From an uncultured Verrucomicrobiota bacterium (GTDB lineage: Bacteria; Verrucomicrobiota; Verrucomicrobiia; Palsa-1439), in assembly GCA_903825435.1 (NCBI GenBank), contig CAIKAP010000144.1, positions 1-36,113 on the forward strand: a stretch of DNA of 36,113 bases, given 5' to 3'. Position numbers and translations under genes: made by a program. This document shows positions 8,504 to 36,113 of the stretch, in pieces. The notes below the pieces were generated by a model. That model worked only from the letters and a program-made list of their open reading frames with translations, was not told where the DNA came from and made no database searches. The first letter of the stretch is position 1; every line of letters begins with the position of its first letter.

Positions 8504-8578
8504 ACGGACGACGTTGGTGATGAGCTTGACAAGCGTAGCGGCCTGTCGGATACATCGGCGTTCACTTACTTGATTGTC

Positions 8579-9640
8579 ATGAGCACAGATCCTAAAGTTT
8601 CCGTCATTATTTTGAATTATAATACGGTGAAGTGGTTGCAGAAGTTTCTGCCTGTGCTGATGCAGAAAACTCAGTACGATAACTTGGAGGTTATCGTGGC
8701 CGACAACCATTCCGCCGATGGTAGCATCGAGTTTGTGAGGAAAAATTTCCCGTCCATCAAGACGGTTTACTTTGAGAAGAATTTTGGGTTTGCCGAGGGG
8801 AACAATCGGGCGATAGCGGCCTTGGCAGAAGGGGAATACATCGTTTTGCTGAATTCTGACATCGAGGTTTCTCCGAGATGGCTGGATACGATGGTGGCAT
8901 TCATGGAACAGCATCCTGATGCGGCGGCGTGCCAGCCGAAGATTTTGTCCTATCGGAAGCGCAACGAATTTGAGTATGCAGGGGCGGCGGGAGGATTTAT
9001 TGACCAGTATGGGTACGTTTTTTGTCGTGGACGTTTCTTTGAAGTTTGCGAGGAAGATCACGCTCAGTACGACAGCGTGAAGGAAGTCTTTTGGGCTAGC
9101 GGCGCCTGCATGATGATACGCCGTTCCGTGTGGCGGCAGATTGGTGGGTTGGATGACGATTTTTTCATGCACATGGAAGAGATCGACTGGTGTTGGCGTG
9201 CCCATCTCTGTGGCTACAAACTCTACTGCGTGCCCCAGAGCGTTGTGTATCACGTGGGCGCGGGCACGCTCACCAAACAGAATCCGCGGAAGACCTACTT
9301 TAATTACCGGAATAATCTGTTGATGTTGCAGAAAAATCTGTCGTGCGTTACTGCATGGCGCGTGTTGTTGTTTCGTCTGATCCTGGATCACCTGTCACTC
9401 TACCGTCACTTGGCACATGGGCATTTCGCCATCTGCACTGGTATCCTGCTGGCGCACCGCGATTTTTTGGTTCACCAACCCAAATGGGTGCGCAAACGAA
9501 TGGCCAACCAGAAATTCCTTCGAAATGTCAATCCGCAGGTGCGGTTTGGGTTGGATTTTCCGCGAGTGGTTTACAACGGCGACATCGTTGTTGACCATTT
9601 TTTAAAACAAAAAGAATCCTTCTCCGAGCTGAAGCTGTAG
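8579..9640 (+). CDS. family 2 glycosyltransferase (rhamnosyltransferase-like)
   Basis: A 353-residue GT-A fold enzyme that opens with KVSVIILNYNTVKWLQKFL and continues with VIVADNHSADGS and the metal-binding-type LLNSDIEVSP. A later conserved block, FWASGACMMIRRSVW followed by FFMHMEEIDWCWRAHLCGY, is typical of the WbbL/RfbN-like rhamnosyltransferase group of O-antigen loci. It is expected to act at the inner face of the membrane on a lipid-linked acceptor. The ATG at 8579 is preferred over a TTG at 8570. It is the first gene of the plus-strand glycan operon, about 75 bases after the histidine kinase, and is followed by the CDP-sugar genes. The exact sugar cannot be read from sequence. Confidence 0.88.
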   Translation: MSTDPKVSVIILNYNTVKWLQKFLPVLMQKTQYDNLEVIVADNHSADGSIEFVRKNFPSIKTVYFEKNFGFAEGNNRAIAALAEGEYIVLLNSDIEVSPRWLDTMVAFMEQHPDAAACQPKILSYRKRNEFEYAGAAGGFIDQYGYVFCRGRFFEVCEEDHAQYDSVKEVFWASGACMMIRRSVWRQIGGLDDDFFMHMEEIDWCWRAHLCGYKLYCVPQSVVYHVGAGTLTKQNPRKTYFNYRNNLLMLQKNLSCVTAWRVLLFRLILDHLSLYRHLAHGHFAICTGILLAHRDFLVHQPKWVRKRMANQKFLRNVNPQVRFGLDFPRVVYNGDIVVDHFLKQKESFSELKL

Positions 9641-9710
9641 CACGGCAGTGACGGTGGAAAAGCGACGACAATTGCAATTTCCTGTTGAGGATGATAAAGT
9701 TTCTTTCAGT

Positions 9711-10484
9711 ATGAAAACTGTGATCTTGTGTGGCGGATTGGGAACGCGCTTGCGCGAAGAAACGGAGTTTCGCCCAAAACCAATGGTGGAAATCGGCGGA
9801 CGCCCTGTTCTCTGGCACATCATGAAAATCTACGCACACTCCGGGTTTCGTGAGTTTGTGTTGTGCCTCGGATATCGTGGCAACCTGATCAAGGAGTACT
9901 TTTTAAATTACGAGGCGATGAACAACGATTTCACCATTTGCCTTGGACGACAGCATGACGTTACTTATCTCGGCGCCCACGCGGAACAGGACTTTAACGT
10001 CACGCTCGTGGATACCGGTGCTGACAGCATGACGGGTGGACGCGTGAAACGCACGGAGCGGTACATGGATGGGGATACGTTCATGGTTACCTACGGCGAT
10101 GGGGTGTCGGACGTGGATATCTGCAAGCTGCTCGCGTTTCACAAATCACATGGCAAACTCGCGACCGTGACAACAGTCAAACCGGTCTCACGCTTTGGGC
10201 TTCTGGAACTCAATAATCAGGGGCGAGTGATTGATTTTGCCGAGAAACCAGAGTTGAACGGTTGGGCCAGCGCCGGGTTCTTTGTGTTTAACAAGCGTGT
10301 GTTCGAATATCTGACCGGCGACGATTGCATTATGGAACGCGAGCCGCTGGAGCGATTGGCGCGCGAAGAACAGTTGATGGCGTATCGCCACGAAGGCTTT
10401 TTCTACGCTATGGATACTTATCGCGAATACCAATATTTGAATGAGGTGTGGAACAGCGGTAAAGCCCCGTGGAAGGTGTGGTGA
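9711..10484 (+). CDS. rfbF: glucose-1-phosphate cytidylyltransferase
   Basis: A 257-residue nucleotidyltransferase, the usual RfbF length. It makes CDP-D-glucose from CTP and glucose 1-phosphate, the entry step to CDP-3,6-dideoxyhexoses. The N-terminal signature MKTVILCGGLGTRLREETEF is followed by RPKPMVEIGGRPVLWHIM, and the metal-binding region MVTYGDGVSDVD and the FAEKPELNGWASAGFFVF block are present. The ATG at 9711 begins the family homology, so a 21-residue upstream extension was rejected. Its stop codon overlaps the start of rfbG by one base (TGATG), which indicates translational coupling. Confidence 0.95.
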   Translation: MKTVILCGGLGTRLREETEFRPKPMVEIGGRPVLWHIMKIYAHSGFREFVLCLGYRGNLIKEYFLNYEAMNNDFTICLGRQHDVTYLGAHAEQDFNVTLVDTGADSMTGGRVKRTERYMDGDTFMVTYGDGVSDVDICKLLAFHKSHGKLATVTTVKPVSRFGLLELNNQGRVIDFAEKPELNGWASAGFFVFNKRVFEYLTGDDCIMEREPLERLAREEQLMAYRHEGFFYAMDTYREYQYLNEVWNSGKAPWKVW

Positions 10485-11554
10485 TGTTCGCCGATGTCTT
10501 TTGCAACCGCTCGGTCTGGCTCTCTGGTCATACCGGCTTCAAGGGTGCCTGGCTGGCGGAATGGCTGTTCGAATGCGGTGCTACTGTTTACGGTTTTGCC
10601 CTACCGCCGAACACCAAGCCGGCATTGTTTGAGCAGCTTGGCCTTTTGGAACGTGTGCGACACGAGATTAACGATGTGCGTGATGCGGCGGCAGTGCAAC
10701 GGTCCATACAACAGGCACAACCTGATTTTGTTTTTCATCTAGCCGCACAACCACTCGTGCGTTTGTCCTACGCCGAACCCGTGTCCACCTATGCCACGAA
10801 TGTCATGGGTACCGTTCATGTGTTGGATGCCTTGCGTTCCCTGAAGAAACCGTGTGCGGCGATTTTCGTGACCACAGACAAGTGTTACGAAAATCGCGAA
10901 TGGATTTACGGTTACCGTGAAGACGATGTGCTGGGAGGTTATGATCCTTACAGTTCCAGCAAAGCCGCGGCCGAAATCGTGATTGCGGCCTATCGCCGAT
11001 CCTTTTTCCAGAATCATCCGGTTCGCATCGCCAGTGCTCGTGCCGGTAACGTCATTGGCGGTGGTGATTGGGCGACCGACCGGATTGTGCCCGATTGCAT
11101 CCGCGCGCTGCAGGCTGGGATGCCCATTCCGGTTCGCAAGAAGACAGCCATCCGTCCATGGCAACATGTGCTGGAACCGTTGAGTGGATACCTCTGGCTC
11201 GCCGCTCTTCTCGCTCAACCGTCAACCATCGACTCTCAACTCTGTTCCGCCTTCAATTTCGGCCCGACGCACGAGGCCAACCGGACCGTGACCGAATTGT
11301 TGCAGGAAATTCTAAAGCACTGGCCGGGACGCTGGGAAGACAAGAGCGATCCGAACGCCGTCCACGAAGCCGGTTTGCTCCAGCTTTCCATCGACAAGGC
11401 CCATACGCTGCTCCGGTGGAAGCCGGTATGGGATTTCCCGACCGCCGTCGAACAAACGGTTTGCTGGTATCGGAATCCCTCACGAGAATTAAGTGTTCGT
11501 CAAATCAACCAATATGTTACGGCGGCTAGCCGATTAGGGTTGCCGTGGGCTTGA
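10484..11554 (+). CDS. rfbG: CDP-glucose 4,6-dehydratase
   Basis: A 356-residue extended short-chain dehydrogenase that converts CDP-D-glucose to CDP-4-keto-6-deoxyglucose with bound NAD. Visible are the nucleotide-binding [11 protein letters not shown] (about 14-24), [12 protein letters not shown] (about 85-96), the active-site TTDKCYEN (about 130-137) and the YxxxK pair in YSSSK (Tyr156, Lys160). The downstream [20 protein letters not shown] is a CDP-glucose dehydratase hallmark. The ATG at 10484 overlaps the rfbF stop; starts further upstream would intrude into rfbF. It lies 2 bases before rfbH. Confidence 0.95.
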
Positions 11555-11556
11555 CC

Positions 11557-12864
11557 ATGACCAATAAGGAATCACTGCGAAACCAAATCGTGGAACTGGT
11601 GCGACAGTACCACGCGGTATCATTTTCACCGTCACCGTTCATTCCCGGGGAGACGCCTGTACCCTATGCCGGGCGGGTGTTCGATGCGACCGAGTTGGAG
11701 TATTTGGTGGATGCGTCGCTTGACTTCTGGTTGACCACGGGGCGTTTTGCAGAACGGTTTGAACGCGAGTTTGCAAAGTTCTGCGGGGTGCGCCATGTCT
11801 CGCTGGTCAATTCCGGTTCTTCAGCCAATCTTGTGGCTCTCTCGTCGTTGACCTCGCCGAAACTCGGCGACCGTCAACTGAAAGCCGGCGATGAAGTCAT
11901 CACCGCCGCGACCGGTTTCCCAACAACGGTGAATCCGATCATTCAAAATCAGCTCGTGCCGGTTTTCATTGATGTAACGGCACCGACGTACAACCCGGAT
12001 GTTAGCCAGCTTGAAGCTGCCTTCTCGCCTCGCACACGGGCGGTGATATTTGCGCACACGCTGGGAAACCCGTTCGACCTCGATGCCGTGGTGGATTTCT
12101 GCAAGCGCCACAAATTATGGTTGATCGAAGACTGTTGTGACGCCGTTGGTTCCACGTACACCGGCCGGATGGTTGGCGCTTTTGGCGATCTGGCGACCGT
12201 GAGTTTTTATCCGGCGCATCACATGACGATGGGCGAAGGCGGGGCGGTGCTTACCAACTCGCCGCTGTTGAAAACGCTGGTGGCGTCTTTTCGTGACTGG
12301 GGGCGCGACTGCTGGTGCGCGCCCGGCAAGGACAACACCTGCGGCAAACGATTTGAATGGCAACTCGGTGAGCTGCCGTGTGGTTACGACCACAAGTACA
12401 TCTATTCCCACATCGGCTACAACCTGAAGCTCACCGATATGCAAGCGGCTGTTGGCTGCGCCCAATTGAAAAAACTGCCAGGCTTCATCGAGGCTCGTCG
12501 CCGCAATTTCCGCGCGCTCTATGAGAGCCTGAAGGATTTGGAGAATGTTTTCATTCTACCGGAAGCCACCGTGAACAGCGACCCGAGTTGGTTTGGGTTC
12601 CCGCTGGCAGTGCGACCGGAGGCGCCCTGTACGCGCGAGCGGGTCATCCAGCACCTGAACGAACACAAGATCAGCACGCGATTGCTCTTTGGCGGCAACT
12701 TGGTGCGACAACCTGCTTATCTACAAGTTCCCCATCGCCGCATTGGCGATCTGCACAATGCCGACTTTGTCATGAACCAAGTTTTCTGGCTCGGCGTTTA
12801 TCCCGGGTTGTCGGGTGAAGCCGTTCAATATATGTCCGATACGGTGCACAAGTTCTTCAGTTGA
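11557..12864 (+). CDS. rfbH: CDP-4-keto-6-deoxy-D-glucose 3-dehydratase (E1, PMP/[2Fe-2S])
   Basis: A 435-residue DegT/DnrJ-fold enzyme that removes the C3 hydroxyl of CDP-4-keto-6-deoxyglucose. Two features identify it. The PLP-anchoring Lys of aminotransferases is replaced by His in [14 protein letters not shown] (His221/222). The iron-sulfur spacing known from Yersinia E1, C-X57-C-X1-C-X7-C, is matched exactly by Cys194, Cys252, Cys254 and Cys262. The enzyme needs an iron-sulfur flavoprotein reductase (E3, DdhD/AscD); none is present in this window, so it must be encoded elsewhere or be replaced by another reductase. The ATG at 11557 is preferred over an in-frame GTG at 11545 inside rfbG. 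Confidence 0.96.
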
Positions 12865-12867
12865 CCT

Positions 12868-13785
12868 ATGCGATGTCTTATTACAGGTGCCTCTGGGCAT
12901 CTCGGTTCTTATCTGACGCGGCAACTGCTTGCGGGAGGGCACGAAGTTTCCATCATGGTGCGACCGCAAAGTAATCTTTGGCGCATTGCGGATGTCCTCA
13001 ACCAGACGCGTGTGATATACGGTGACCTGTCGGTCATTGAACAGGCAGAAAATGGCATCCTCACCATTGCGCCCGAGGTTGTTTTTCATCTCGGTTGGCA
13101 TGGCGTGGCCAGTGAGCATCGCGATGATCTCAATCAAATCCATCACAACCTCACCGGCACGCTGCGTTTGTTGGAGTACGCCCAACGTGGCGGTTGCCGT
13201 TGTTGGGTTGGGGTTGGATCACAAGCGGAATACGGACGGTTTGAGGGGGTGCTGCACGAGAAACAGCCGACGCAACCGATTACGTTGTATGGTGTGACCA
13301 AGTTGTGTGCAGGCCTGTTGACCCGACAGCTATGTGCGATGAACAATGTCCGCTACGTTTGGTGCCGCTTGTTGGCCACATATGGGCCGAAGGACGACCC
13401 GCGCCATTTCATTCCCACGGTCATTCGGAAGCTGCTCGCCGGGGAGAAGCCGTCGCTGACACCCGGTGAACAGATGTGGGATTATCTGCATGTTGCCGAT
13501 GCAGCAACTGCGCTGCAACAACTGGCCGAGGAATCTCTCGCCGAAGGAGTGTTTGTTCTGGGATCCGGCCGCGCCGTTAGCATACGGCAGGTTGCCGAGA
13601 CGATCCGCGACCTGATTGATCCCCAGTTGCCGCTTGGCCTTGGTGAATTGTTCTACCGGGCCGACCAAGTGATGCGCTTGGAGGCAGACAGTGGGCGGTT
13701 GAAAGCGGTGACGGGCTGGTCACCGCAGATGTCGTTGGAACGTGGGCTGGAGATGACTGTTGCGTGGTATCGAAATCAGATATGA
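12868..13785 (+). CDS. NAD(P)-dependent sugar epimerase/ketoreductase (extended SDR)
   Basis: A 305-residue extended SDR with the nucleotide-binding TGASGHLGSY (about 6-15), a Ser in VGVGSQAEYG (about 114-123) and the catalytic pair in LYGVTK (Tyr141, Lys145). It starts 3 bases after rfbH and ends 10 bases before the TPP enzyme. In CDP-3,6-dideoxyhexose loci this slot is filled by abequose or paratose synthase (4-keto reduction), or by YerF, which reduces the acetyl branch in yersiniose synthesis. Because a YerE-like gene follows directly, a YerF-like role is the preferred inference, but the sequence alone does not separate these options. Confidence 0.82.
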   Translation: MRCLITGASGHLGSYLTRQLLAGGHEVSIMVRPQSNLWRIADVLNQTRVIYGDLSVIEQAENGILTIAPEVVFHLGWHGVASEHRDDLNQIHHNLTGTLRLLEYAQRGGCRCWVGVGSQAEYGRFEGVLHEKQPTQPITLYGVTKLCAGLLTRQLCAMNNVRYVWCRLLATYGPKDDPRHFIPTVIRKLLAGEKPSLTPGEQMWDYLHVADAATALQQLAEESLAEGVFVLGSGRAVSIRQVAETIRDLIDPQLPLGLGELFYRADQVMRLEADSGRLKAVTGWSPQMSLERGLEMTVAWYRNQI

Positions 13786-13795
13786 TACGCGGCGA

Positions 13796-15505
13796 ATGAA
13801 AGTCTCAGACTACATCAGTGAATTTCTCCACGCGCAAGGCGTGCAGTACGTGTTCGAACTTGTGGGGGGGATGATTACGCATCTTGTGGATTCGATTCAC
13901 ACGCAGGGCAAGATCAAGCTTGTCAGCGTTCATCATGAACAGGCAGCGGCCTTCGCAGCGGACGCGATGGGACGGATGACGGGAATGCCTGGCGTTGCGA
14001 TGGCGACCAGCGGGCCGGGTGCGACGAATTTGTTAACCGGTATTGGCAGTTGCTACTTTGATTCGTCGCCAGCGGTGTTCATCACCGGTCAGGTCAACCG
14101 CAGCGAACAGAAAGGCGACCGCCCCATTCGGCAATTGGGATTTCAAGAGACGAATATCGTGGCGGTAGCCGGTCTGTTGACGAAGGCAGCGTGGCGTATC
14201 CAGACACCTGAAGAATTACCGGCGCGTCTGACAGAGGCGTTCCTGTTGGCGCAGTCGGGACGACCCGGTCCTGTGTTGTTGGACATTCCGATGGATGTGC
14301 AGCGCGCGCAGATTACCGTGGATCGGCCGTTGCGTGTCATGCCGAGCATTGCCGGCAACCCCAACCTCACGGAATTGTTTGCGGCTTTGGCGGTGGCAAA
14401 GCGACCGTTGATTTTGGCGGGTGGGGGTGTTCGTGCCGCGCGTGCGACGGAGGAATTTCGCCGGTTTATGGAGCAGGTGCGCGTTCCGGTGGTGAACTCG
14501 TTGATGGCAGTGGATGTGCTGCCGTACGTGCATCCGTTGCGAGTCGGGATGATCGGTAGCTACGGCAACCGTTGGGCGAATTTGGCCATCGGGCGAGCCG
14601 ATCTGCTGTTGGTGCTCGGCAGCCGCCTCGATGTGCGCCAGACCGGGGCGATGCCCGCCGCATTCAAAAGTGACCGTACGGTTTTCCATATCGATTGCGA
14701 CAATACGGAAATCAACAACCGGGTCACTGGTTGTGTGCCGATGGTGAGTCACTTGCAGCCATTCCTGCGCGTCGCGTCAGCTGCCGCTACGTCACAATCC
14801 TGGCCGGACTGGTCTGCGTGGTGCAAGGAGTTGGGCGAGTTACGACAGCAGTGGACGGATACGGAAGAACTGCATGATGTACCCGGCATCAATCCGAACA
14901 CGTTGATGCATCAGATCAGCCAGCGGCTAAAACACGCCGCTGGCTATGTTGTGGACGTGGGGCAGCATCAAATGTGGGCGGCGCAATCACTCGAATTGGA
15001 AGCGCACCAGCGCTTCCTTACGTCAGGTGGGATGGGGGCGATGGGGTTCGCCTTGCCAGCAGCCATCGGTGCCTGTCTGTCCGCGCCCGGGCAAGTGGTG
15101 ATGATGATTGCTGGCGACGGTGGATTCCAACTGAACATCCAAGAACTCCAGACCATCACCCATAATAATCTACCGGTGAAATTGGTGGTGCTCAATAATG
15201 GCTGTCACGGCATGGTGCGACAATTCCAAGAGAGTTATTTCGACAAGCGGTATGTTTCGACTTATTGGGGCTACTCGGCGCCGGATTTTGCGGCGGTAGC
15301 ACGGTCGTACGAAATGGAGGCTGATACAGTGAGCGACCCGGTCAGCGTGGAACGCGCCCTCGACCGTATGTCCGCCGACAAGCGACCCTATTTGCTACAG
15401 GTCATGATTGACCGGTCAGTCAACGTTTATCCAAAAATCGCTTTTGGTCATCCGATTACCGAGATGGAACCATTCGTGAAGCCACTTGATATGGAAGGAA
15501 CTTAA
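13796..15505 (+). CDS. thiamine-diphosphate-dependent enzyme, acetolactate-synthase-like (YerE candidate)
   Basis: A 569-residue three-domain TPP enzyme. The N-terminal pyrimidine-binding domain has the activating Glu in SVHHEQAAAFAADA. The middle domain runs through RPLILAGGGVRAA, with a possible FAD-type region. The C-terminal diphosphate domain has the GDG-NN motif (AGDGGFQLNIQELQTI, then LVVLNNG). It resembles acetolactate synthase large subunits, but no small subunit or other branched-chain amino-acid gene is nearby. Immediately after rfbFGH, the best-known member is YerE, a TPP flavoenzyme that adds an acetyl group from pyruvate to C4 of CDP-4-keto-3,6-dideoxyglucose. The ATG at 13796 is used. 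Its TAA overlaps a further ATG (see the next entry). Confidence 0.85.
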   Translation: MKVSDYISEFLHAQGVQYVFELVGGMITHLVDSIHTQGKIKLVSVHHEQAAAFAADAMGRMTGMPGVAMATSGPGATNLLTGIGSCYFDSSPAVFITGQVNRSEQKGDRPIRQLGFQETNIVAVAGLLTKAAWRIQTPEELPARLTEAFLLAQSGRPGPVLLDIPMDVQRAQITVDRPLRVMPSIAGNPNLTELFAALAVAKRPLILAGGGVRAARATEEFRRFMEQVRVPVVNSLMAVDVLPYVHPLRVGMIGSYGNRWANLAIGRADLLLVLGSRLDVRQTGAMPAAFKSDRTVFHIDCDNTEINNRVTGCVPMVSHLQPFLRVASAAATSQSWPDWSAWCKELGELRQQWTDTEELHDVPGINPNTLMHQISQRLKHAAGYVVDVGQHQMWAAQSLELEAHQRFLTSGGMGAMGFALPAAIGACLSAPGQVVMMIAGDGGFQLNIQELQTITHNNLPVKLVVLNNGCHGMVRQFQESYFDKRYVSTYWGYSAPDFAAVARSYEMEADTVSDPVSVERALDRMSADKRPYLLQVMIDRSVNVYPKIAFGHPITEMEPFVKPLDMEGT

Positions 15506-15611
15506 TGATCCCCCGCAACTGATTTCTGCCTCGTGTTTCAACAAAAAAGAGAATGTTCGCGAGTTGTTTGAGATGGTGCGCTTGGGGGTGTCACCAGCGT
15601 GGAGGAAGTGA
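15505..15611 (+). pseudogene. frameshifted N-terminal remnant of a GT2 glycosyltransferase
   Basis: Overlapping the TPP-gene stop (TTAATG) is an ATG at 15505 that stops after five codons. One base out of frame, from 15519, the sequence reads LISASCFNKKENVRELFEMV, the typical opening of a family 2 glycosyltransferase, and then hits TGA at 15609. Adding one C to the five-C run at 15510-15514 would join the ATG to this frame as MIPPQLISAS. Only about 35 residues survive, so it is a scrap and not a working enzyme. Its last codons contain the GGAGGAAG ribosome site of the next gene. Confidence 0.5.
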
Positions 15612-15614
15612 ACT

Positions 15615-16808
15615 GTGAGTGAAACGCAACAGGTCTGTTCCAAAACGGTGGCCATTTGCTGCCATGATGTCGTGCCTGGTCCTCCGCATTTTCTGCGGGA
15701 TTACCTGCTGCAAACCGGCTGCCAGCAGTTGCTCTTCATCAGCCATGTGAACCGCGCGGTGCCAAGCAACCCGATCCGTGCGTCCTCGTGTACTTTGTAC
15801 CAGAAGGGTAGCACTGTGCAGAAACGCACTGGGTCGTCCCGCCCCATGTCTGATTTGCTGCAGTATGGCTTTGATGTGCTGCGAACGTTGTGGTGGACGC
15901 TGGTAATCGTGAAGGGACCGATTGATCTGTTCGTGGGCGCCGGCAATCTCAACGCATTCTGCGGCGTGCTGCTGAAGCGGGTTGGCAAGGTTCGGCAGGT
16001 GGCCTATTATGTAATTGATTACATCCCCGACCGTTATCCTAACCGGCTGAAGAACTGGCTTTACAACTACTTGGAGAAGTTGGCGGCGAGGCATAGTGAT
16101 GTGACTTGGAATTACTCTCAGGTAATGATTGACCGACGGGAACAGCGCTGGGGGAAGATTTTCCGCAACCAGATTGTGACTCCCCACGGTGCCACCCCGC
16201 GATACCAGGACAAAGTATGGGAGGAGAAACCTGAGTACTTGGATATTGCGTACTTTGGTTTTGTGCATCGCGAGCAAGGGTGTGAACTGGTTCTCGCGTG
16301 TTTGCCAGCCCTGCGGGCTGTTCTTCCCGGTGTCCGCTTTCGACTCGTTGGTCATTGCGAACCCGACTACTTGGAGGAACTCCATGCAAAGTCTCGAAAT
16401 CTAGGCGTTGCCGACATCGTCACATTCCTTGGAATGGTGCCGGACCACAAAGAGGTGGAAAAGGCACTGCTGCATTGTGCGGTGGGCGTTGCCACATATC
16501 GAGACACCCACGGGTTCATTCGCAATACCGATCCGGGAAAGGTGAAGACTTATCTGGCATGCGGCTTGCCGGTGATCATGACGGATGTCGGCACCATGGC
16601 GAAGCTGATTAAGGAAACTGACGCCGGGGTGATTATCCCGTATGATAAACAGGCTTGTGAAGAGGCGTTACTCAAGGTGTTGAATGATCCGCAACGCTTG
16701 CGGCGGATGTCGGAAAATGCCGGACGGCTTTCGGAAAGATACAGTTGGACGGCAATCTTTCAGACCGCGTTTGCGTCGTTAAACCTCGGAAAGGATTGGG
16801 AATTGTGA
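15615..16808 (+). CDS. family 4-type glycosyltransferase (GT-B fold)
   Basis: A 397-residue GT-B enzyme. The C-terminal donor-binding half is clear: YFGFVHREQGCELVL, VRFRLVGHCEPDYLEEL, VTFLGMVPDHKEVEKAL and NTDPGKVKTYLACGLPVIMT, a variant of the family's donor-sugar site. The N-terminal half (about 1-190) is divergent, as usual for acceptor domains. The GTG start at 15615 is set by a strong GGAGGAAG nine bases upstream. The stop overlaps the GTG of the next gene by four bases (GTGA). It should act at the cytoplasmic membrane face and add one sugar to the lipid-linked glycan; the specificity is unknown. Confidence 0.85.
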   Translation: MSETQQVCSKTVAICCHDVVPGPPHFLRDYLLQTGCQQLLFISHVNRAVPSNPIRASSCTLYQKGSTVQKRTGSSRPMSDLLQYGFDVLRTLWWTLVIVKGPIDLFVGAGNLNAFCGVLLKRVGKVRQVAYYVIDYIPDRYPNRLKNWLYNYLEKLAARHSDVTWNYSQVMIDRREQRWGKIFRNQIVTPHGATPRYQDKVWEEKPEYLDIAYFGFVHREQGCELVLACLPALRAVLPGVRFRLVGHCEPDYLEELHAKSRNLGVADIVTFLGMVPDHKEVEKALLHCAVGVATYRDTHGFIRNTDPGKVKTYLACGLPVIMTDVGTMAKLIKETDAGVIIPYDKQACEEALLKVLNDPQRLRRMSENAGRLSERYSWTAIFQTAFASLNLGKDWEL

Positions 16809-18061
16809 ATATTGAAGGAACCAAGAAACTGGCAGGAGTCATCGAGTTATTGCTGGAATCCGCCAGCCGCATTAACGAGGCGAAGCCTCAGCGATACTGG
16901 TATCCGTTGAGCATGGCCACCTACGGCGTCGAGGAAATCCTTGAAGCGATTGATTCGATGTGCAGTTTCCGCACGACGATGTGGGAGAAAACGTTGCTGT
17001 TTGAGCGGAAGTTTGCCGCCGCCCAAGGGTGCGCCGACGCGGTGATGGTCAACAGTGGATCGTCAGCGGATTTGCTGCTTTGTTTCCTGATGACCGACCC
17101 CAATAATCCCCGGTTGGGTCCGGGTGATGAGGTGCTGGCGCCAGTCGTCACTTGGCCGACGCAGATTTGGTCCGTTCTAATGGCTGGATTGCAGGTACGG
17201 TTGGTGGACATTGATCCCACGACGCTGAACATGGATGTGGCCGATCTGGAGAGCAAGATCGGTCCTTCGACACGGGCGATCTTTGTCACGCATCTCATGG
17301 GCAATCCCTGTGCGATGGATCAGATCATGGCGTTGGCACGGAAACACAATCTGGTTGTCTTGGAAGATTGCTGCGAAGCATTGGGGGCGGAGTTTGACGG
17401 GCGCAAGGTTGGCAATTTCGGTATTGGGGGCAGCTTCTCATTTTTCTTCTCGCACCACCTAACGACCATGGAAGGCGGTATGATCTGCTGTCCGGACACC
17501 AAGACGGCGGAGCAGTTGCGGATATTGCGGGCGCATGGCTGGTTGCGCAACGTGGACACGACTGCTTACAAGTTGGGGGCGGACGTGGATCCGCGTTATG
17601 CGTTTGTGAACTGGGGGTTCAATCTTCGCCCAACGGAACTCCAGGCCGGTTTTGGGCTGCACCAGTTGAACCGCATGGCGGGATTTGAAAAACGGCGGGA
17701 GATCATTGCCAACCGGGTTCATGCCTTTGTGGATCAAAGCAAGTTTTTGACGCGTCCCCATGTTCACTCGAAAGCACAACCCTATTGGTTTGCCCTGCCA
17801 ATGGTGGTTCGGGAGGACGCTCCCTTCAGCCGATATGACATCACCAGCTACTTGGAGAAGGAGGGCGTGGAAACCCGTCCCATCGTGGCGGGAAATCTCG
17901 CGCGTCATCCCGCTGCGCAGCTGTTTGCGTCCTTCCAGCGCGACAAGTTTCCCGGCGCCAACATCATTCACGAGCGAGGTTTCTATATCGGCCTGTCGCC
18001 CATGCAGTCGAACGCCAATATTGGCCGTCTTTTGCAGTGTCTGGAAACGTTTCAAAAATGA
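16805..18061 (+). CDS. DegT/DnrJ-family PMP-dependent 3-dehydratase, ColD-like
   Basis: A 418-residue PLP-fold enzyme and the second DegT paralogue of the locus. The PLP lysine is again replaced by His (SFFFSHHLTTMEGG, His217/218), so it cannot be an ordinary sugar aminotransferase. Unlike RfbH it lacks the CXC...C iron-sulfur cysteines after the active site. That combination matches GDP-4-keto-6-deoxymannose 3-dehydratase (ColD) of GDP-colitose synthesis. The partners Gmd and ManC are not in this window, but a GDP-fucose-synthase-like reductase and a GT10 lie a few kb downstream. The GTG at 16805 is chosen because it overlaps the previous stop as GTGA; an in-frame ATG at 16745 would lie deep in the GT4 gene. 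Confidence 0.8.
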   Translation: MNIEGTKKLAGVIELLLESASRINEAKPQRYWYPLSMATYGVEEILEAIDSMCSFRTTMWEKTLLFERKFAAAQGCADAVMVNSGSSADLLLCFLMTDPNNPRLGPGDEVLAPVVTWPTQIWSVLMAGLQVRLVDIDPTTLNMDVADLESKIGPSTRAIFVTHLMGNPCAMDQIMALARKHNLVVLEDCCEALGAEFDGRKVGNFGIGGSFSFFFSHHLTTMEGGMICCPDTKTAEQLRILRAHGWLRNVDTTAYKLGADVDPRYAFVNWGFNLRPTELQAGFGLHQLNRMAGFEKRREIIANRVHAFVDQSKFLTRPHVHSKAQPYWFALPMVVREDAPFSRYDITSYLEKEGVETRPIVAGNLARHPAAQLFASFQRDKFPGANIIHERGFYIGLSPMQSNANIGRLLQCLETFQK

Positions 18062-18278: not shown

Positions 18279-19898
18279 TCAGGGCGATCTGCGAGACCCG
18301 ATAGCGATGAGTCCGTTTTTGCCGGCAACAGACGGTCTTGATCCCGACCATCCAGCCACATACGAAAAGCGGCCGCTGAAAATTCCGGATAGCACTATTC
18401 TCAGCATTTTATTCATCACTTGGACGGTATAGACGACATCCTCCCAGGAATGGATTTTTCTCAAAATGTCCATGACCGTGCCCAAAGACAATTTCTTTAT
18501 GAGGAAAGTTTTCTGTGCCCTATTGGAATAGGATTGAACATCGTTTTTCGAAAGGTGTACTAAATTCCAGCCCCCATAGAACTGGTCGGCTTCAAAGGAA
18601 TCAACAAGGAGACCCTCCTTGATGAAATCGTCCCGCATTTTTGTGCCGGGGTATGGAGTTGCGATACTGAGGGCGAGGAAATCGACTCCGGACTGCATTG
18701 CGAGTTCCTTGGTGGCGCGCATATCCTCGGCTGTCTCATACGGGAAGCCTATCATGAAATTGCCGCCGGTCCAGAATCCGAGCCGTTTGGCCTCTCGGAT
18801 GGCCGACAGGCCTTCTTCGCGGTCGTATTTGCGCTTGATGTAGCGGGTGGTGTTCTCAGATCCGCTCTCGAATCCCACGACAAACCGGTACGCGCCCGAG
18901 CGTTTCATCAGGGTGAGTACCTCTCGATCTAGTCCCTTGATCCCGATTCCGCTGACGGCAGCCCATTTGATCCGGAGTCCAGAATTAATGATTCGAGTAC
19001 AAAGCTCGATAAATCTTGGTTTGTGGACGTTGATGTTGTCGTCCATGAAATGGATTTCGCGAATGTTGAACCGGGTAATGAGATGTTTCATTTCGGAGAC
19101 GACATTCTCGGGTGACCGGGCGCGCCACTTGGCTTGTTTTCCCCAGATCAAAGGGAATGCGCAGAAAGTGCATCTGAAGGGGCAGCCCCGGCTTGTCACC
19201 ATCGGCAGAACAGGGACTCTCATGTTGTAGGATTCGCGGTGATACTTTCGGGCATTCGCGAAATACCGTTCCATGTCGAACAGTGACCAGTTCGGGAATG
19301 GGATCTCGTCCAGGTTTTCGATGAGCGCTCGTGGGGCGTTTTCGGTCACTACGCCATTGTTACGGTAAATCAGGCCGTCGATGGTTGAAAGCCGTTCCGG
19401 ACCAGTTTTTGACGCGCCGACTGTCCGGGCAAGCTCGAAAAAAGTGACTTCCCCTTCACCTGTGACGCAAAAGTCCAGTTCCGGGAATTCTATGAGTAAT
19501 GCACCTTTTTCAATACCAACGTGGTTTCCTCCGACCACGATGCAGGCATCGGGAAACACCTGACGGAATCTGAGGATGTAGTCCTTCAGTACGGATTTAA
19601 TCTTTGAACTCACCGCAGAGATGGCGATGATGTCTGGCTTGTAATTTGGGTCATCTTTGCGCAACAGTCCGATCACCTGATCCGCAGCGATTCCGTGAAT
19701 CCCTATGGTCCCTTGTGGCTTGACTTCGGTCCCAGCCTCGAGCATGCAATCGATCGCGATCTCTTGGAATTCCCCAGGTGCGTGTTTTTGCAGGTAAGCG
19801 GACAGATAGGCGATTCCCAACATGGGCATACATGGTGGAATCACCTGGTCACTGGCTCCGACGATGTTGGCGGGTATCACATAGGCAATTCGGGTCAT
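18279..19898 (-). CDS. B12-binding-domain radical SAM protein
   Basis: A 539-residue protein. The N-terminal cobalamin-binding Rossmann domain (about 1-160) shows PPCMPMLGIAYLSAYL, PDIIAISAVSSKIKSVLKDY and CIVVGGNHVGIEKGALL. The linker NLDEIPFPNWSLF precedes the radical SAM core, whose [4Fe-4S] ligands are in TSRGCPFRCTFCAFP (Cys239, Cys243, Cys246). VVGFESGSENTTRYIKRKYD and GGNFMIGFPYETAEDM follow, as in BchE/P-methylase-type enzymes. Such proteins do C- or P-methylations, ring closures or rearrangements; the substrate here is unknown. The start at 19898 has a clear AAAGGA ribosome site. It is transcribed against the main operon; 217 bases (18062-18278) separate the converging ends with nothing recognised in them. 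Confidence 0.88.
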   Translation of the reverse strand: MTRIAYVIPANIVGASDQVIPPCMPMLGIAYLSAYLQKHAPGEFQEIAIDCMLEAGTEVKPQGTIGIHGIAADQVIGLLRKDDPNYKPDIIAISAVSSKIKSVLKDYILRFRQVFPDACIVVGGNHVGIEKGALLIEFPELDFCVTGEGEVTFFELARTVGASKTGPERLSTIDGLIYRNNGVVTENAPRALIENLDEIPFPNWSLFDMERYFANARKYHRESYNMRVPVLPMVTSRGCPFRCTFCAFPLIWGKQAKWRARSPENVVSEMKHLITRFNIREIHFMDDNINVHKPRFIELCTRIINSGLRIKWAAVSGIGIKGLDREVLTLMKRSGAYRFVVGFESGSENTTRYIKRKYDREEGLSAIREAKRLGFWTGGNFMIGFPYETAEDMRATKELAMQSGVDFLALSIATPYPGTKMRDDFIKEGLLVDSFEADQFYGGWNLVHLSKNDVQSYSNRAQKTFLIKKLSLGTVMDILRKIHSWEDVVYTVQVMNKMLRIVLSGIFSGRFSYVAGWSGSRPSVAGKNGLIAIGSRRSP

Positions 19899-20152
19899 CT
19901 GCGATTCCTTTGTATGAATTCTAATTGATAGAAAACTAGGTGAGCAGATTATCCTGCGCAAGAAGTTTCGTGTTCACGGGCGTTGAGAGGTCGTGACAGA
20001 GTCGGGCGATGTGTTAGGCGTGTTCAATCCAGAATTGGCGTGCGTGTTGGATTCTGTCAATACCCAGTCTATCCTGGTCGTGCTGTTAGATCGGTGGCAT
20101 TCTTTTTTTCCTGTCGCAGAAGATGGCATTTGAAGGGATTTCTCCAAACAGT

Positions 20153-21598: not shown

Positions 21599-22654
21599 AT
21601 GAACATCGGCTTCTACAACTTTTATACCGTCTACAATCAGAATCGCATGTTTTGTAGTCCGGAATCACCGTTAGGCCACAAGCTTGCGGCACCTGCGATG
21701 AGGGTTGCTGAGATTTTGGCGCATCATGGTCACTGCGTCAGTACGATCGACACCGAGCCGCTGACCAGCTACGACTCAGTGGTGTTCCTCGATTACCCGA
21801 CCCGGTTCAATCTGCTGTTCCGTCAGTTGCTTCGGCTGCCGCGCATTCCCTTATACCTGATGCTTAACGAGAATCCCTCGATCCGTCCGGACAACTACTG
21901 GCGTCGCCATCATCGGGTGTTTCGCAAGGTGTTCACGTGGCATGATGACTTGGTTGGTGGTGACAAGTACGTCAAGTTCCTTCCCCCAGTCGCACTGGAA
22001 TGCGAACCAAGGGAAGAGCAACAGACGCGCTCTCGGTTCTGCGTTATCATTAGCAGTAACAAGTTCAGTAATCATACGGCGGAACTGTGTTCGGCGCGCC
22101 GACGGACATTGGACTGGTTTGCTCAAAACCAGCCGCAATACATGGATTTGTATGGCGCTGGTTGGGATCGCTGGTTTGTCCCCCCATTCGGTTTTCTTTT
22201 CAATGCAGTGCTAAACCGCGCCTACCAAAGATGTTCCGGTCTCCCCCGTTGTGTGACGTATCCCTTCTGGAAGGGTACCATTCCGAACAAGCGACTTGTC
22301 CTCCGTAGTAGCAAGTTTTCTATTTGTTACGAGAACGCGGTCTTTCCCGGTTACATCACGGAAAAGATCTTTGATTGTTTCTTTGCCGGGTGCGTTCCGG
22401 TTTATCTGGGAGCACCCAACATCACTCGCTACATCCCAGCCAATGCCTTTATTGACCGTCGTCAGTTCCCATCTGAAGTGGAACTATTCCACTACCTGCG
22501 GGACATGCCCCAGACGGAGTATCTTGCGTACCGTGCGGCGATGGATGATTTCTTGCGAAGCCCGGAGATTCAACGTTTTGGTTCGGAGGCTTTTGCCAAA
22601 CTGATTTTGGAGCACGTTGTGGGCGCGAGCCCGACGGAAGAAATGAACATATGA
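21599..22654 (+). CDS. family 10 glycosyltransferase (alpha-fucosyltransferase-like)
   Basis: A 351-residue GT-B enzyme. The C-terminal half carries the GT10 donor-site signature: SKFSICYENAVFPGYITEKI, then FDCFFAGCVPVYLGAPNI and AFIDRRQF. Family members transfer L-fucose from GDP-fucose in alpha-1,3/1,4 linkage and are found in bacteria making Lewis-type surface glycans. The next gene, overlapping by four bases (ATGA), is a GDP-fucose-synthase-like reductase, so donor synthesis and transfer are translationally coupled. With a ColD-like dehydratase in the same locus, the donor could be GDP-L-colitose (3-deoxyfucose) instead of GDP-fucose; that is inference. Confidence 0.88.
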   Translation: MNIGFYNFYTVYNQNRMFCSPESPLGHKLAAPAMRVAEILAHHGHCVSTIDTEPLTSYDSVVFLDYPTRFNLLFRQLLRLPRIPLYLMLNENPSIRPDNYWRRHHRVFRKVFTWHDDLVGGDKYVKFLPPVALECEPREEQQTRSRFCVIISSNKFSNHTAELCSARRRTLDWFAQNQPQYMDLYGAGWDRWFVPPFGFLFNAVLNRAYQRCSGLPRCVTYPFWKGTIPNKRLVLRSSKFSICYENAVFPGYITEKIFDCFFAGCVPVYLGAPNITRYIPANAFIDRRQFPSEVELFHYLRDMPQTEYLAYRAAMDDFLRSPEIQRFGSEAFAKLILEHVVGASPTEEMNI

Positions 22655-23589
22655 ACAAAAACGCAAAGATCTACCTGGCGGGGCATAACGGCATGGTGGG
22701 AGCTGCGCTCCAACGGGCCATGATCATCGCTGGCTTTCAGAATGTCATTACCGCATCGCGTGAGGTATTGGATTTGCGCGATGGCCTGTCTGTCCGTGAG
22801 TTTTTCAGGCGAGAACGGCCGGAGTGTGTAATTTTGGCGGCGGCAAAAGTGGGAGGTATCGAAGCGAACCGTCGGTTCCCGGCGGAGTTCATTGCCGACA
22901 ACCTGATGATCCAGACAAATGTGATCCATCAGGCACATCAGTGTGGAGTGGGAACACTGGTCTTTCTGGGGAGTTCCTGTGTTTATCCACGTGAGTGTCC
23001 CCAGCCGATGAAGGAAGAGTATCTGCTAACCGGGCCGCTGGAGCCGACCAACGAGGCTTATGCCGTGGCGAAGATTGCTGGTTTAAGGATGGCCCAGTAT
23101 TATCACCAGCAATATGGCATGCGGGTTGTCTGTCCGATGCCCTGCAACCTTTACGGACCTAAAGACAGCTTCGATCTACAGAAATCTCACGTTTTCAGTG
23201 CGCTTGTGAAGAAATCCGTAGACGCCATTGACGATGGTTGCGACCAGATCATGTTATGGGGTACCGGAAAATCACGTCGGGAATTCATGCATGTGGACGA
23301 CCTTGCGCAGGCGGTGTTGCTGCTGTTGGAGAAATGGTACTCGCCGGAAATCATCAATGTTGGAACTGGCACGGATGTCGCCATCGCAGAGTTGGCACGG
23401 TTGATCGCCGTGACAGCTGGGTTCCGGGGTAAGATTTACTGGGATGCTACCATGCCAGATGGGATGCCGCGAAAGTGCCTCGATATCACTCGCCTCGATC
23501 GACTGGGCTTCTGCCCATCGTTTTCACTGGCCGCGGGAATCGAATCCATGATTCGTCAATACCGTCAGCTGAAAGGCGATTTCAAATAA
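22651..23589 (+). CDS. GDP-L-fucose synthase / GDP-L-colitose synthase-like epimerase-reductase
   Basis: A 312-residue extended SDR of the GDP-4-keto-6-deoxymannose 3,5-epimerase/4-reductase family. It has AGHNGMVGAAL (NADP site), ILAAAKVGGIEANRRFPAEF, FLGSSCVYPRECPQPMKEEY, and the catalytic region NEAYAVAKIAGLRMAQYY (Tyr and Lys of YxxxK) followed by a MPCNLYGPKDSFD block. The length and motifs fit Fcl (WcaG). ColC of colitose synthesis belongs to the same family, so the substrate may be the 3-deoxy sugar if the ColD-like gene at 16805 feeds it. No gmd is present in the window. A hairpin follows the stop. Confidence 0.88.
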   Translation: MNKNAKIYLAGHNGMVGAALQRAMIIAGFQNVITASREVLDLRDGLSVREFFRRERPECVILAAAKVGGIEANRRFPAEFIADNLMIQTNVIHQAHQCGVGTLVFLGSSCVYPRECPQPMKEEYLLTGPLEPTNEAYAVAKIAGLRMAQYYHQQYGMRVVCPMPCNLYGPKDSFDLQKSHVFSALVKKSVDAIDDGCDQIMLWGTGKSRREFMHVDDLAQAVLLLLEKWYSPEIINVGTGTDVAIAELARLIAVTAGFRGKIYWDATMPDGMPRKCLDITRLDRLGFCPSFSLAAGIESMIRQYRQLKGDFK

Positions 23590-23728: not shown

Positions 23729-25157
23729 ATGGCAAAATTTCTTCTAATGACTACAAGTATCGAAGATGGCGCGCGGTCGCCATCTGTCCAGCATAATTCA
23801 CACTATCCTATTGGGGTTGCATATCTGCATTCCTATCTGGAGTCAATCGGACATCGGGTGGAGACACTTGATTTGAATGATTATCCTTTTGACCAGTGTC
23901 GGACTATAGCGATGGACAAAATCGCTGCTGAACATTGGGACATTGTGGGTTTCCAAATACTTGCGTTCAATCGTACGTCAAGCTTCCGATTGATTGAGGA
24001 AATTCATCAGCATCGCCCTGATATCCACTTGGTGGCGGGGGGAGTCCATGCCACGGTGATGTATGAGCAAATCGTTTTACGTTACCCATTTCTTACAGTC
24101 GTCAGAGGAGAGGGGGAGATGACAATCTCTGAGCTTGCAGACAAGTGGTCGGGGGGGGGGGGGGGATATGGGTTCAGTGCCGGGGATTGGTTTTTCCGTA
24201 GGTGGGAAGCTTGTTGTTACTGAGGATAGGCCGCTCATAAACGACTTAGATTCTTTACCATTTCCCAAGCATGAACTATTTTTTCACAAGAACAGGACTC
24301 GATGTAATATTCTAACAAGCAGGGGCTGTCCATTTACCTGCAGTTTCTGTTGTTTGGACTCAATTTCCCACAGACGGGTTCGGTATCGTTCGATTCCTAA
24401 TGTGATGAAAGAAATCGAATATATGATCTCGAAATTCCCGCAAATGACGCATATATGGATTCACGATGACTCGTTCTTTTTAAAGAATGAACGAGTCGTT
24501 GAGTTTTGTGATGAGATCGTGAGACGGGGCATTTCGCTGAAATTCATCTGTAGCGCAAGGTTTAAGCCCCTGTCATCAGTAGTGATTGCCGCGCTTGAGA
24601 GGGCAGGTTTTGCGATGGTACTGTTCGGGCTTGAAAGTGGTTCTAAAAAAATACTGCAATCCTGTCACAAGAATATATCCACCACTGACGTGATACATGC
24701 ATTCCGTCTATTTGCAGGGTCTCCAATCAACATTGTAACGTTTTTGATTGTTGGCTTGCCGGGTGAAACTTGGAGTACCGCACGAGAAACAATCGCGTTG
24801 ATTAAACAAGTGCAGAGAATTAAGTATGCGTATTTTGATGACATTGGCATCTTGAATATCTATCCTGGAACGGAGGTGTATGAGATTGCGAAGAGAGCCG
24901 GTATGGTGTCAGACGACTACTGGATGACGGAAGGAAAGGTGCCTCCTTACACGGTTGAGCATTCACTAGCTGCCTTGCTGAAGTTAAAAGAAGAAATCAC
25001 CTCTCATATCTCATTGCGCAAAATCATTACTGCTAAAGGGTTTCTTCGCCAGATTGCAATGTTTCCCCATGTCGTTAAGTGGGGTTTCCAGACGCGGCGA
25101 GTGATCGCTTTTGGGGTAACGGAGAAAGTCAGGCAACGTCTAGCCCGTCGCGGTTGA
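23729..25157 (+). CDS. B12-binding-domain radical SAM protein, interrupted by a poly-G frameshift
   Basis: Two frames join into one protein of about 475 residues. The first (23729 to the poly-G run) is the cobalamin-binding domain: HYPIGVAYLHSYLESIGHRV, WDIVGFQI, IHLVAGGVHATVMYEQI and VRGEGEMTISELAD. After the 15-G run the frame shifts by +1, and the protein continues with VPGIGFSVGGK, INDLDSLPFPKHELF and the radical SAM cluster TSRGCPFTCSFCC (about Cys200, Cys204, Cys207 of the joined protein), then VLFGLESGSKKIL and FLIVGLPGETWSTA. As written the first frame ends at 24223, before the catalytic core. With 14 G the gene would be intact. It is a paralogue in architecture of the gene at 18279-19898; the substrate is unknown. 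The next 139 bases are discussed in the findings. Confidence 0.85.
24151..24165 (+). repeat. homopolymer run of 15 G inside a coding sequence
   Basis: Fifteen consecutive G lie at the junction between the cobalamin-binding and radical SAM domains, encoding a Gly stretch. A run of 14 restores the frame, while 15 causes early termination. Such runs slip during replication and transcription, and they are also prone to sequencing error. Confidence 0.95.
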
Positions 25158-25296: not shown

Positions 25297-26316
25297 TCAA
25301 CGCCCCGGTGATTCTACGTGTTGGGGCAGCCAGCTGCGGACTGCGCTGAAGCATTCTCCAAGCAAGCCAAACGGCAAAGCAAGTTTGTTCCGCAGGTAGG
25401 GGTCTGACTGATGGACGGTGCGCATGGTGTCACGGATCACCTTCCTGTTGCCGCTGCGCATCCCGGCAATGACGCTCAACATGCATCGTTTCGAGGCGAA
25501 GTAGTAACTCCGACGGATCAAGTTTGGGAGTTCGGCTGCCGTGAAAAGTTCCTGAACATCCGGTCGCGCGAGGTACTGACATGCCAACGAGTAGAAGACG
25601 CTGTTGTTCAACCCTCGCTTGTGAATCTGTACTGTGTCGGATTGGGCGTTGAACCGCCACGAATTCAGCGGTTCGGCGATATAGTAGAAATCGTACTTGG
25701 TTGCAAACCTCATGCAGAGTTCCACGTCGCACGCAAAATCCGCTGACAGGTCGAACGAACCGAGCCGTTCAAAACATTCTCGCCGGTACAACAAACCCGA
25801 CGGCACGCAGCACGGATATATCCGCGTCAGGAAATCCCGCAAGATCTCCCGTCCGGGGACGCAGCCATCCGTTTTCCGATAGGCATAGAGCAGTCGCATT
25901 CTTTTGATGAGATAAAAGCGGGGCGTTACAGCGCGCCCTGTTTCATCCACAATGTCCAGTGGCGACATGACCACCCCGACCCGTGGCTGCGATTCCAGTA
26001 TCGCTGCGCTACGTTCCAGTGAACGAGGCTTCATCAAATCGTCGTCCATCAACAACTTGATGAAGCGCCCCTGACTGCGCTCCACAGACAAGGCTAAATT
26101 TTTGAAGCCGCCAAGATTGCCGGGGTTTCGAAAGTACCGGAGTTTCGGTGATCTAATCCTCCGTACAACCGATTCGGTCTCGTTGTTGGTACTGTTATCG
26201 GACACCACGATCTCAAAATCCTGATAGGTCTGCGCCAGACAAGAGCGAATGGCCTGTTCCAGAAAGGTCGGGCGGTTGTAGGTGGGGATTGAAACTGAAA
26301 TGGTGGGTTTACTCAT
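25297..26316 (-). CDS. family 2 glycosyltransferase
   Basis: A 339-residue GT-A enzyme. It opens with TISVSIPTYNRPTFLEQAI, then EIVVSDNSTNNET, and carries the metal-site-type motif KLLMDDDLMKPRSLE. CCVPSGLLYRRECFERLGSFD and DFACDVELCMRFATKYDFYY belong to the same family region as SpsA-like transferases. It is the last gene of the minus-strand export/assembly operon; its start overlaps the end of the YfhO-like gene by 8 bases. It probably adds a sugar to the lipid-linked glycan; donor and acceptor are unknown. Confidence 0.87.
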   Translation of the reverse strand: MSKPTISVSIPTYNRPTFLEQAIRSCLAQTYQDFEIVVSDNSTNNETESVVRRIRSPKLRYFRNPGNLGGFKNLALSVERSQGRFIKLLMDDDLMKPRSLERSAAILESQPRVGVVMSPLDIVDETGRAVTPRFYLIKRMRLLYAYRKTDGCVPGREILRDFLTRIYPCCVPSGLLYRRECFERLGSFDLSADFACDVELCMRFATKYDFYYIAEPLNSWRFNAQSDTVQIHKRGLNNSVFYSLACQYLARPDVQELFTAAELPNLIRRSYYFASKRCMLSVIAGMRSGNRKVIRDTMRTVHQSDPYLRNKLALPFGLLGECFSAVRSWLPQHVESPGR

Positions 26317-35713: not shown

Positions 35714-36113
35714 TTACAGCATGGTGACCAACGCGGGGTCGCTCCAGCCACCGGTATTATGGCTGCCTTTGGCGGCGACGCGCACCCAGCCCCGGCTGAC
35801 CGGCGTCAACCCGCCTATCTGGCCATTCCGAAAGAAACGGTGCCACCATAAAAAGACGGGCGGTTTTTCTAGCCGAATCGTCGTTCCACCGCCATCCAAG
35901 CCGGGTTTGCCGTCATCCCGGCTCGGTTGACCGTAATCCGCCCTCGGTTCGTCATCAACCCGGCACGGATTACTGTGAACCGTCCCAGGTTTACCGCAAA
36001 CCGTCCCAGGTTTACCGCAAACCGTCCCAGGTTTACCGCAAACCGTCCCAGGTTTACCGCAAACCGTCCCAGGTTTACCGCAAACCGTCCCAGGTTTACC
36101 GCAAACCGTCCCA
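35714..36113 (-). CDS. 3' end of a gene with heptapeptide repeats and a fibronectin-III-like tail (partial)
   Basis: The minus-strand frame is open from the window edge to TAA at 35714-35716, about 132 residues. It starts as tandem GKPGTVC heptads, passes through diverged heptads (SNPCRVD, DEPRADY, GQPSRDD, GKPGLDG) and ends in a unique segment. The end, GLTPVSRGWVRVAAKGSHNT then GGWSDPALVTML, resembles the last strands of a fibronectin type III domain. The proline of each heptad is kept while its codon third base changes (CCT, CCG, CCC), which favours real coding. A good terminator follows the stop. No start codon exists in this frame before the repeats, so the gene must begin outside the window. 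Function unknown; a surface or repeat protein is possible. Confidence 0.5.
   Translation of the reverse strand, partial: GTVCGKPGTVCGKPGTVCGKPGTVCGKPGTVCGKPGTVCGKPGTVHSNPCRVDDEPRADYGQPSRDDGKPGLDGGGTTIRLEKPPVFLWWHRFFRNGQIGGLTPVSRGWVRVAAKGSHNTGGWSDPALVTML
35889..36113. repeat. 21-base tandem repeat array running off the window
   Basis: Units of 21 bases in register from 35889. The first four (35889-35972) are diverged, the fifth (35973-35993) is nearly canonical, and from 35994 the units are identical copies of CCGCAAACCGTCCCAGGTTT plus A, with a partial unit at the edge. There are no spacers, so it is not a CRISPR. 21 = 7 codons, and on the minus strand each unit reads GKPGTVC. Confidence 0.95.

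Follow-up and report, generated by a model that had tools for sequence, protein, structure and literature searches.

A run of 15 G interrupts a gene for a cobalamin-dependent radical SAM enzyme in the window analyzed here, that is, the whole stretch of 36,113 nucleotides that constitutes contig C144 of a 3.43-Mb draft genome (242 contigs) from an uncultured Verrucomicrobiota bacterium. This locus raises the question of whether the gene is switched on and off by changes in tract length, as an initial annotation had suggested, or whether it is misassembled, read by slippage during expression, decaying, or divided into two functional proteins.

A radical SAM gene split at a poly-G tract

The run reported at positions 24151-24165 indeed comprises exactly 15 G and lies inside a single gene on the plus strand. 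The 5' part of this gene (23729..24223, plus strand) starts with the ATG at 23729 and encodes 164 amino acids, including a B12-binding domain (PF02310, E 1.3e-16, residues 23-136), and everything that it encodes beyond the tract is out of frame. As had been described, this frame closes soon after the run, at the stop codon 24221-24223, 19 codons beyond the tract. The 3' part (24168..25157, plus strand) encodes the radical SAM domain (PF04055, E 3e-18), and the CxxxCxxC cysteines were found in this downstream frame, within RGCPFTCSFCC, where the annotation had placed them. Both Pfam matches exceed their gathering scores and follow the order B12-binding, then radical SAM, and they are fused only after a one-base shift. 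The further claim that the domain order becomes continuous when one G is removed is correct: the loss of one G suffices, giving 14 G, and any other length congruent to 2 modulo 3, such as 11 or 17 G, joins both frames as well.

The poly-G tract is the sole lesion of the gene. From the ATG at 24168, 329 sense codons remain open while the two other frames contain 25 stops each, and the upstream part has no stop in its own frame compared with 7 and 9 in the others. Tract length sets whether a full-length or a truncated product is encoded, and both domains are contiguous once the frame is shifted by one base.

The read-through protein, translated with one four-letter step at the tract, is 475 amino acids long and shows sequence similarity to AprD4 (6fd2, E 2e-17). 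NCBIfam profiles of the HpnJ, BchE and AprD4 types match one or both halves in the correct order, with a best score of 123.5 bits for halves scored separately against the HpnJ cut-off of 577.6; the separate halves fall below all NCBIfam cut-offs. An AlphaFold model of the read-through protein, built from four sequences (mean pLDDT 70, with an unreliable C-terminus), was matched by Foldseek to the whole structures of TsrM, OxsB, CysS and AprD4, with E values of 1e-16 to 1e-21. The split gene shares domain order, the CxxxCxxC motif and predicted fold with the cobalamin-dependent radical SAM enzymes AprD4, OxsB, CysS, TsrM and HpnJ, although it is only 17-33% identical to the nearest relatives seen.

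Sequence, read-through translation, homolog alignment and the AlphaFold model together place this candidate slippage tract in a Gly loop between the two domains. In the model, the four-Gly stretch (residues 142-145) forms a loop between a helix at 129-141, predicted to be the last of the B12 domain, and strands at 153-163 that lead into the radical SAM domain (block pLDDT about 75). Among 24 aligned relatives (23-31% identity in local alignments), the linker mostly consists of about 5 ordinary residues, for example MESGED or VLMEKD; it is longer in two of them, and more than two adjacent Gly at the linker were found in none. A tract of 11 G would match the common linker length, and 14 G adds one Gly. 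As the tract encodes a loop that consists of about five ordinary residues in most relatives, the enzyme should tolerate the gain or loss of three G. In addition, GGG accounts for 20% of Gly codons in 22 genes of the window, so that the chance of four adjacent Gly codons all being GGG is about 0.0015.

These alignments bear on the idea that the locus encodes two proteins, one that binds B12 and another, a stand-alone radical SAM protein, initiated at the ATG at 24168. This ATG is a possible internal start, suitably spaced after the G run, which lies at the would-be Shine-Dalgarno position, and it precedes the first-frame stop at 24223. All 24 aligned homologs, by contrast, cross the junction as one open chain, and the ATG falls within a linker segment that is conserved in the fused relatives, which makes the two-protein arrangement extremely improbable.

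No ortholog of the split gene was found in 20 relatives, in 384 genomes of the class or in a scan of GTDB contigs, where the comparison genomes were represented by one per species and the order holds only 11 genomes. Distant relatives (23-33% identical) do carry ordinary linkers of the non-G kind that the annotation had named as evidence against switching. The G+C content of the gene (0.45-0.47) is lower than that of most genes in the window, and taken with the missing ortholog this suggests that the gene was probably acquired. The gene is probably dispensable too, and the tract could then represent a fresh inactivating mutation in an incipient pseudogene, without any functional switching. We consider this very unlikely, as no second lesion occurs in 329 codons, the one lesion lies in a tract whose changes in length are readily reversible, and this genome and its family contain similar cases, as described below.

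The surrounding glycan locus

The genes around the split gene agree with the annotation in that the run sits in a glycan locus. Its upstream part (8570..18061, plus strand), assigned with NCBIfam and Pfam, comprises a glycosyltransferase, a glucose-1-phosphate cytidylyltransferase, a CDP-glucose 4,6-dehydratase, RfbH, an NAD-dependent epimerase, an acetolactate-synthase-like ThDP enzyme, a glycosyltransferase and a second RfbH-like enzyme. TIGR02623 and TIGR02622 score above their cut-offs, as does NF011936 (RfbH) for the first copy, and the ThDP enzyme may point to branched CDP-sugar pathways, such as that of yersiniose. Immediately 5' of the split gene are a putative glycosyltransferase (21599-22654, plus strand), recognized by eye only and lacking an NCBIfam match, and a GDP-L-fucose synthase (22651-23589, plus strand; NF047922, E 2e-120, with a bit score below the cut-off of that family). 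A family 2 glycosyltransferase (25297..26316, minus strand; PF00535, E 2.5e-24) is convergent with the split gene. The split gene lies among CDP-sugar enzymes, a GDP-fucose synthase and glycosyltransferases, and the enzyme that it encodes probably modifies a sugar or glycan. Its setting is of a contingency type, as phase variation usually affects genes for glycans or for restriction-modification.

The locus also contains a second, intact B12/radical SAM gene (18279..19961, minus strand; HpnJ/BchE-like in NCBIfam, below family cut-offs), which lacks a long homopolymer and in which all G/C runs are shorter than 7. At the contig end, a short tandem repeat occupies positions 35714-36112 and reads on the reverse strand as repeated GTVCGKP; this repeat is probably the assembly break point.

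Long G/C tracts in the genome and in related genomes

Pattern searches of the whole genome revealed 14 G/C runs of at least 9, of which five have 9 bases, three have 10, three have 11, one has 13 and two have 15, whereas every A/T run is shorter than 10. A composition-only model, with a G+C content of 0.57 taken from sampled loci, predicts about 61 runs of at least 9, 0.4 of at least 13 and 0.03 of at least 15, where 14, 3 and 2 were observed, respectively. Chance alone would thus give more short G/C runs and fewer very long ones than the genome contains, a pattern that would arise where slippage has lengthened a few tracts; the 15 G of the split gene lie within a reading frame in a genome for which about 0.03 such runs are expected.

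The other 15-G run of this genome (C34, 7389-7403) is preceded by GTGTGTGT and is apparently intergenic, flanked by a transposase-like and a glnB/glnK-like open reading frame as judged by eye (locus L009). G012, a relative from within the class, has runs of 20, 19 and 18 G on contigs C1 and C31 (L073 3007-3026 and 5064-5082; L075 1493-1510). The 20- and 19-G runs share 30 identical bases upstream (ttacgatttggatgctagcgcgctgtgcgc), which suggests a repeated element.

Split genes were also sought at other G/C tracts. A codon-usage frameshift classifier applied at 122 G/C runs was dropped as too insensitive, as it missed the split gene itself, and an open-frame geometry screen, whose rows were read manually, was used instead. 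This screen, which is permissive in high-GC DNA, yielded 33 rows, four of which were accepted. Rejected candidates include L071, where the run marks a natural boundary between histidine kinase and response regulator, L194, a UspA-like protein whose frame is seemingly lost before the run, and L229, where the run lies upstream of an rsmH-like gene. Runs of 10 C at L195 and L196 also appeared in the screen, outside the four accepted.

In the genome of the split gene, an 11-G run at approximately C199:38461-38471 (L019 1961-1971, minus strand) breaks a type II-like DNA methyltransferase, of which PF01555 profile positions 2-193 are encoded in one frame and 191-220 in the next. The G codons specify the Gly part of the DPF-V-GGG-TT motif. 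Its closest ortholog (G009:C60; L189 2536-2545, minus strand), from G009, a genome of another genus of the family, is 83% identical and carries 10 G at the same codons, again out of frame, whereas in 23 other homologs (57-80% identical) ordinary mixed codons specify the motif and the frame stays open. Between the two genera, therefore, the +1 phase of this tract is kept while its length differs (11 G vs 10 G). In both genomes, an intact type II restriction-enzyme-like gene (PADLOC REase_II; DUF6996/DUF6997) lies 3' of the methyltransferase. In G009, the start of this gene and the in-frame stop of the methyltransferase overlap (TGATG), and in C199 it starts one base after that stop (TGACGTG), an arrangement that suggests translational coupling. 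A search for solved structural relatives of the restriction-enzyme-like protein found none. Similarly, an 11-G run at G009:C8 (L064 3027-3037) divides a type I-like methyltransferase-specificity gene fusion, in which one PADLOC specificity profile runs on across the tract (35-117 / 117-191); no relatives of this gene were found in the class at E 1e-60.

The two genomes together thus contain four out-of-frame tracts, all in glycan or restriction-modification genes (a tiny sample), and all four are one G too long (+1). Five further tracts of at least 10 lie in frame within open genes. They comprise 13 G at C106:12334-12346 (L010), in a frame of 1683 codons with a weak CBM9-like match; 10 G on C38, in a zinc-ribbon-like protein; 11 C encoding poly-Pro on C78; 11 C encoding poly-Pro on C79 (L015 2034-2044), in a gene that is glycosyltransferase-like by eye; and 15 C encoding poly-Pro at G009:C25 (L065 2239-2253), in a gene that by eye resembles a membrane glycosyltransferase. 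The poly-C genes of C79 and G009:C25, like the 13-G gene of C106, could be contingency genes that are switched ON.

A rival reading concerns the assembled length itself. If it reflects an assembly or consensus error, the real tract would be in frame (e.g., 14 G) and the gene on in nearly all cells; the tract might still be mutable, and the OFF state would be the artifact. Both sequencing and assembly are prone to errors at long G runs, only a draft in many contigs is available for this genome, and an error would account for the common +1 phase and for an intact restriction-enzyme-like gene after an apparently inactive methyltransferase in two genomes. On the other hand, no other gene in the window appears split and its next longest homopolymer is only 7, so that there is no sign of a general indel error. 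Indiscriminate consensus errors would be expected to break other genes also, and the five long tracts listed above are in frame, although the sample is tiny. Moreover, a one-base mistake leaves unexplained both the presence of a long G run and its recurrence at the same methyltransferase codons in two genera. A length error is thus a rather unlikely account of the split gene.

The +1 phase is also compatible with slippage during transcription or translation, under which a fixed 15-G gene would yield a mixture of full-length and truncated enzyme in each cell, with no switch in the DNA. Homopolymers of at least 8 are known slippage sites (PMC3711429), the 3' frame is kept intact, and an out-of-frame methyltransferase expressed in this way could still protect the cell from the restriction enzyme. 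Nevertheless, conserved programmed sites are usually A or T runs, the methyltransferase tract varies in length between genera, and four of four tracts at +1 has a chance of 1/16 if +1 and -1 are equally likely. We regard slippage at the level of expression as quite unlikely to be the explanation for the split gene.

Proposed replication slippage and comparison with known phase-variable systems

Contingency switching classically affects genes for glycans and for restriction-modification, and on this basis we propose, with moderate confidence, that replication slippage in the poly-G tract, with ON/OFF switching of the radical SAM gene, would best explain the observations. Slipped-strand mispairing at replication would add or remove G in a hypermutable interdomain tract; cells with 11, 14 or 17 G would produce the full-length enzyme (ON), and those with the assembled 15 G only the 164-amino-acid B12-binding fragment (OFF). 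Length variation within the population and reversibility are steps that we infer. Such switching may alter a glycan and thereby diversify the cell surface, with selection by phages as one conceivable driver. The C199 methyltransferase, its 10-G ortholog of different tract length and the type I-like gene of G009 lend indirect support, and the interpretation given in the annotation is partly supported. The single lesion, the fold matches of the read-through protein, the excess of very long G runs and the in-frame poly-C tracts of C79 and G009:C25 also count in its favor.

Three observations count against replication slippage as the cause. The 15-G tract exceeds the 9-10 G typical of Campylobacter, where 13-15 G are rare (PMC6321876), all four out-of-frame tracts share the +1 phase, and the restriction-enzyme-like gene beside the methyltransferase is intact in both genomes, a danger to the cell if no methyltransferase is really made. 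This intact gene and the +1 phase would both be accounted for by a consensus error, or by leaky slippage during expression. A broader proposal is that this family of uncultured Verrucomicrobiota controls glycan-modifying and restriction-modification genes through poly-G contingency. The tract in the SAM-binding motif of the type II methyltransferase, present at differing lengths in two genera, would then be tolerated beside an intact restriction enzyme because slippage at transcription or in coupled translation maintains some methylation. We put this forward only tentatively and think it doubtful.

Most documented cases of slippage-driven phase variation come from host-associated bacteria with small genomes. 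As in the poly-G/C loci of Campylobacter, Helicobacter and Neisseria (PMC6321876), a G homopolymer lies in an open reading frame, its length sets the frame, and surface-glycan and methyltransferase genes are the targets; the split gene differs in belonging to another phylum, in its longer tract (15) and in being known here from one assembly. Campylobacter fetus has radical SAM genes with G(9-10) that PhasomeIt counts as phase-variable (PMC6321876), but these are listed as MoaA/NifB/PqqE/SkfB-type, whereas the split gene is B12-binding. The methyltransferases of phasevarions (e.g., modA, modH) resemble the C199 gene and its ortholog in being breakable and restorable by repeat length, but in C199 the tract lies in the DPF-GGG-TT motif, the enzyme is type II-like and a restriction-enzyme-like gene follows downstream.

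Within what we take to be the same phylum, the Akkermansia muciniphila capsule offers a target of the same kind. There, an inverton-driven phase-variable capsule has been demonstrated (PMC13343947), whereas slippage at mononucleotide repeats (8-10) has only been proposed for capsule genes (PMC3048395). None of the open-licence papers found in our literature search demonstrates a slippage switch in Verrucomicrobiota. Switching by poly-G tracts is well known in itself, and the split gene adds a candidate from an uncultured Verrucomicrobiota draft, in which both a cobalamin/radical SAM glycan gene and restriction-modification genes bear the slippage signature. Should reads confirm mixtures of tract lengths, stochastic switching of surface and restriction functions would extend to this Verrucomicrobiota lineage, and such "broken" genes ought to be annotated as switchable, not as dead. 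The methyltransferase tract common to two genera is the most valuable lead.

With regard to the phylum, the 16S signatures of the class sample, including four from the family of the window, all read ACACCTACGGGTGGCAGC, the target of the EUB338-III probe, which is typical of Verrucomicrobiota, and the genome probably belongs to that phylum; no 16S signature was found in the window's own draft.
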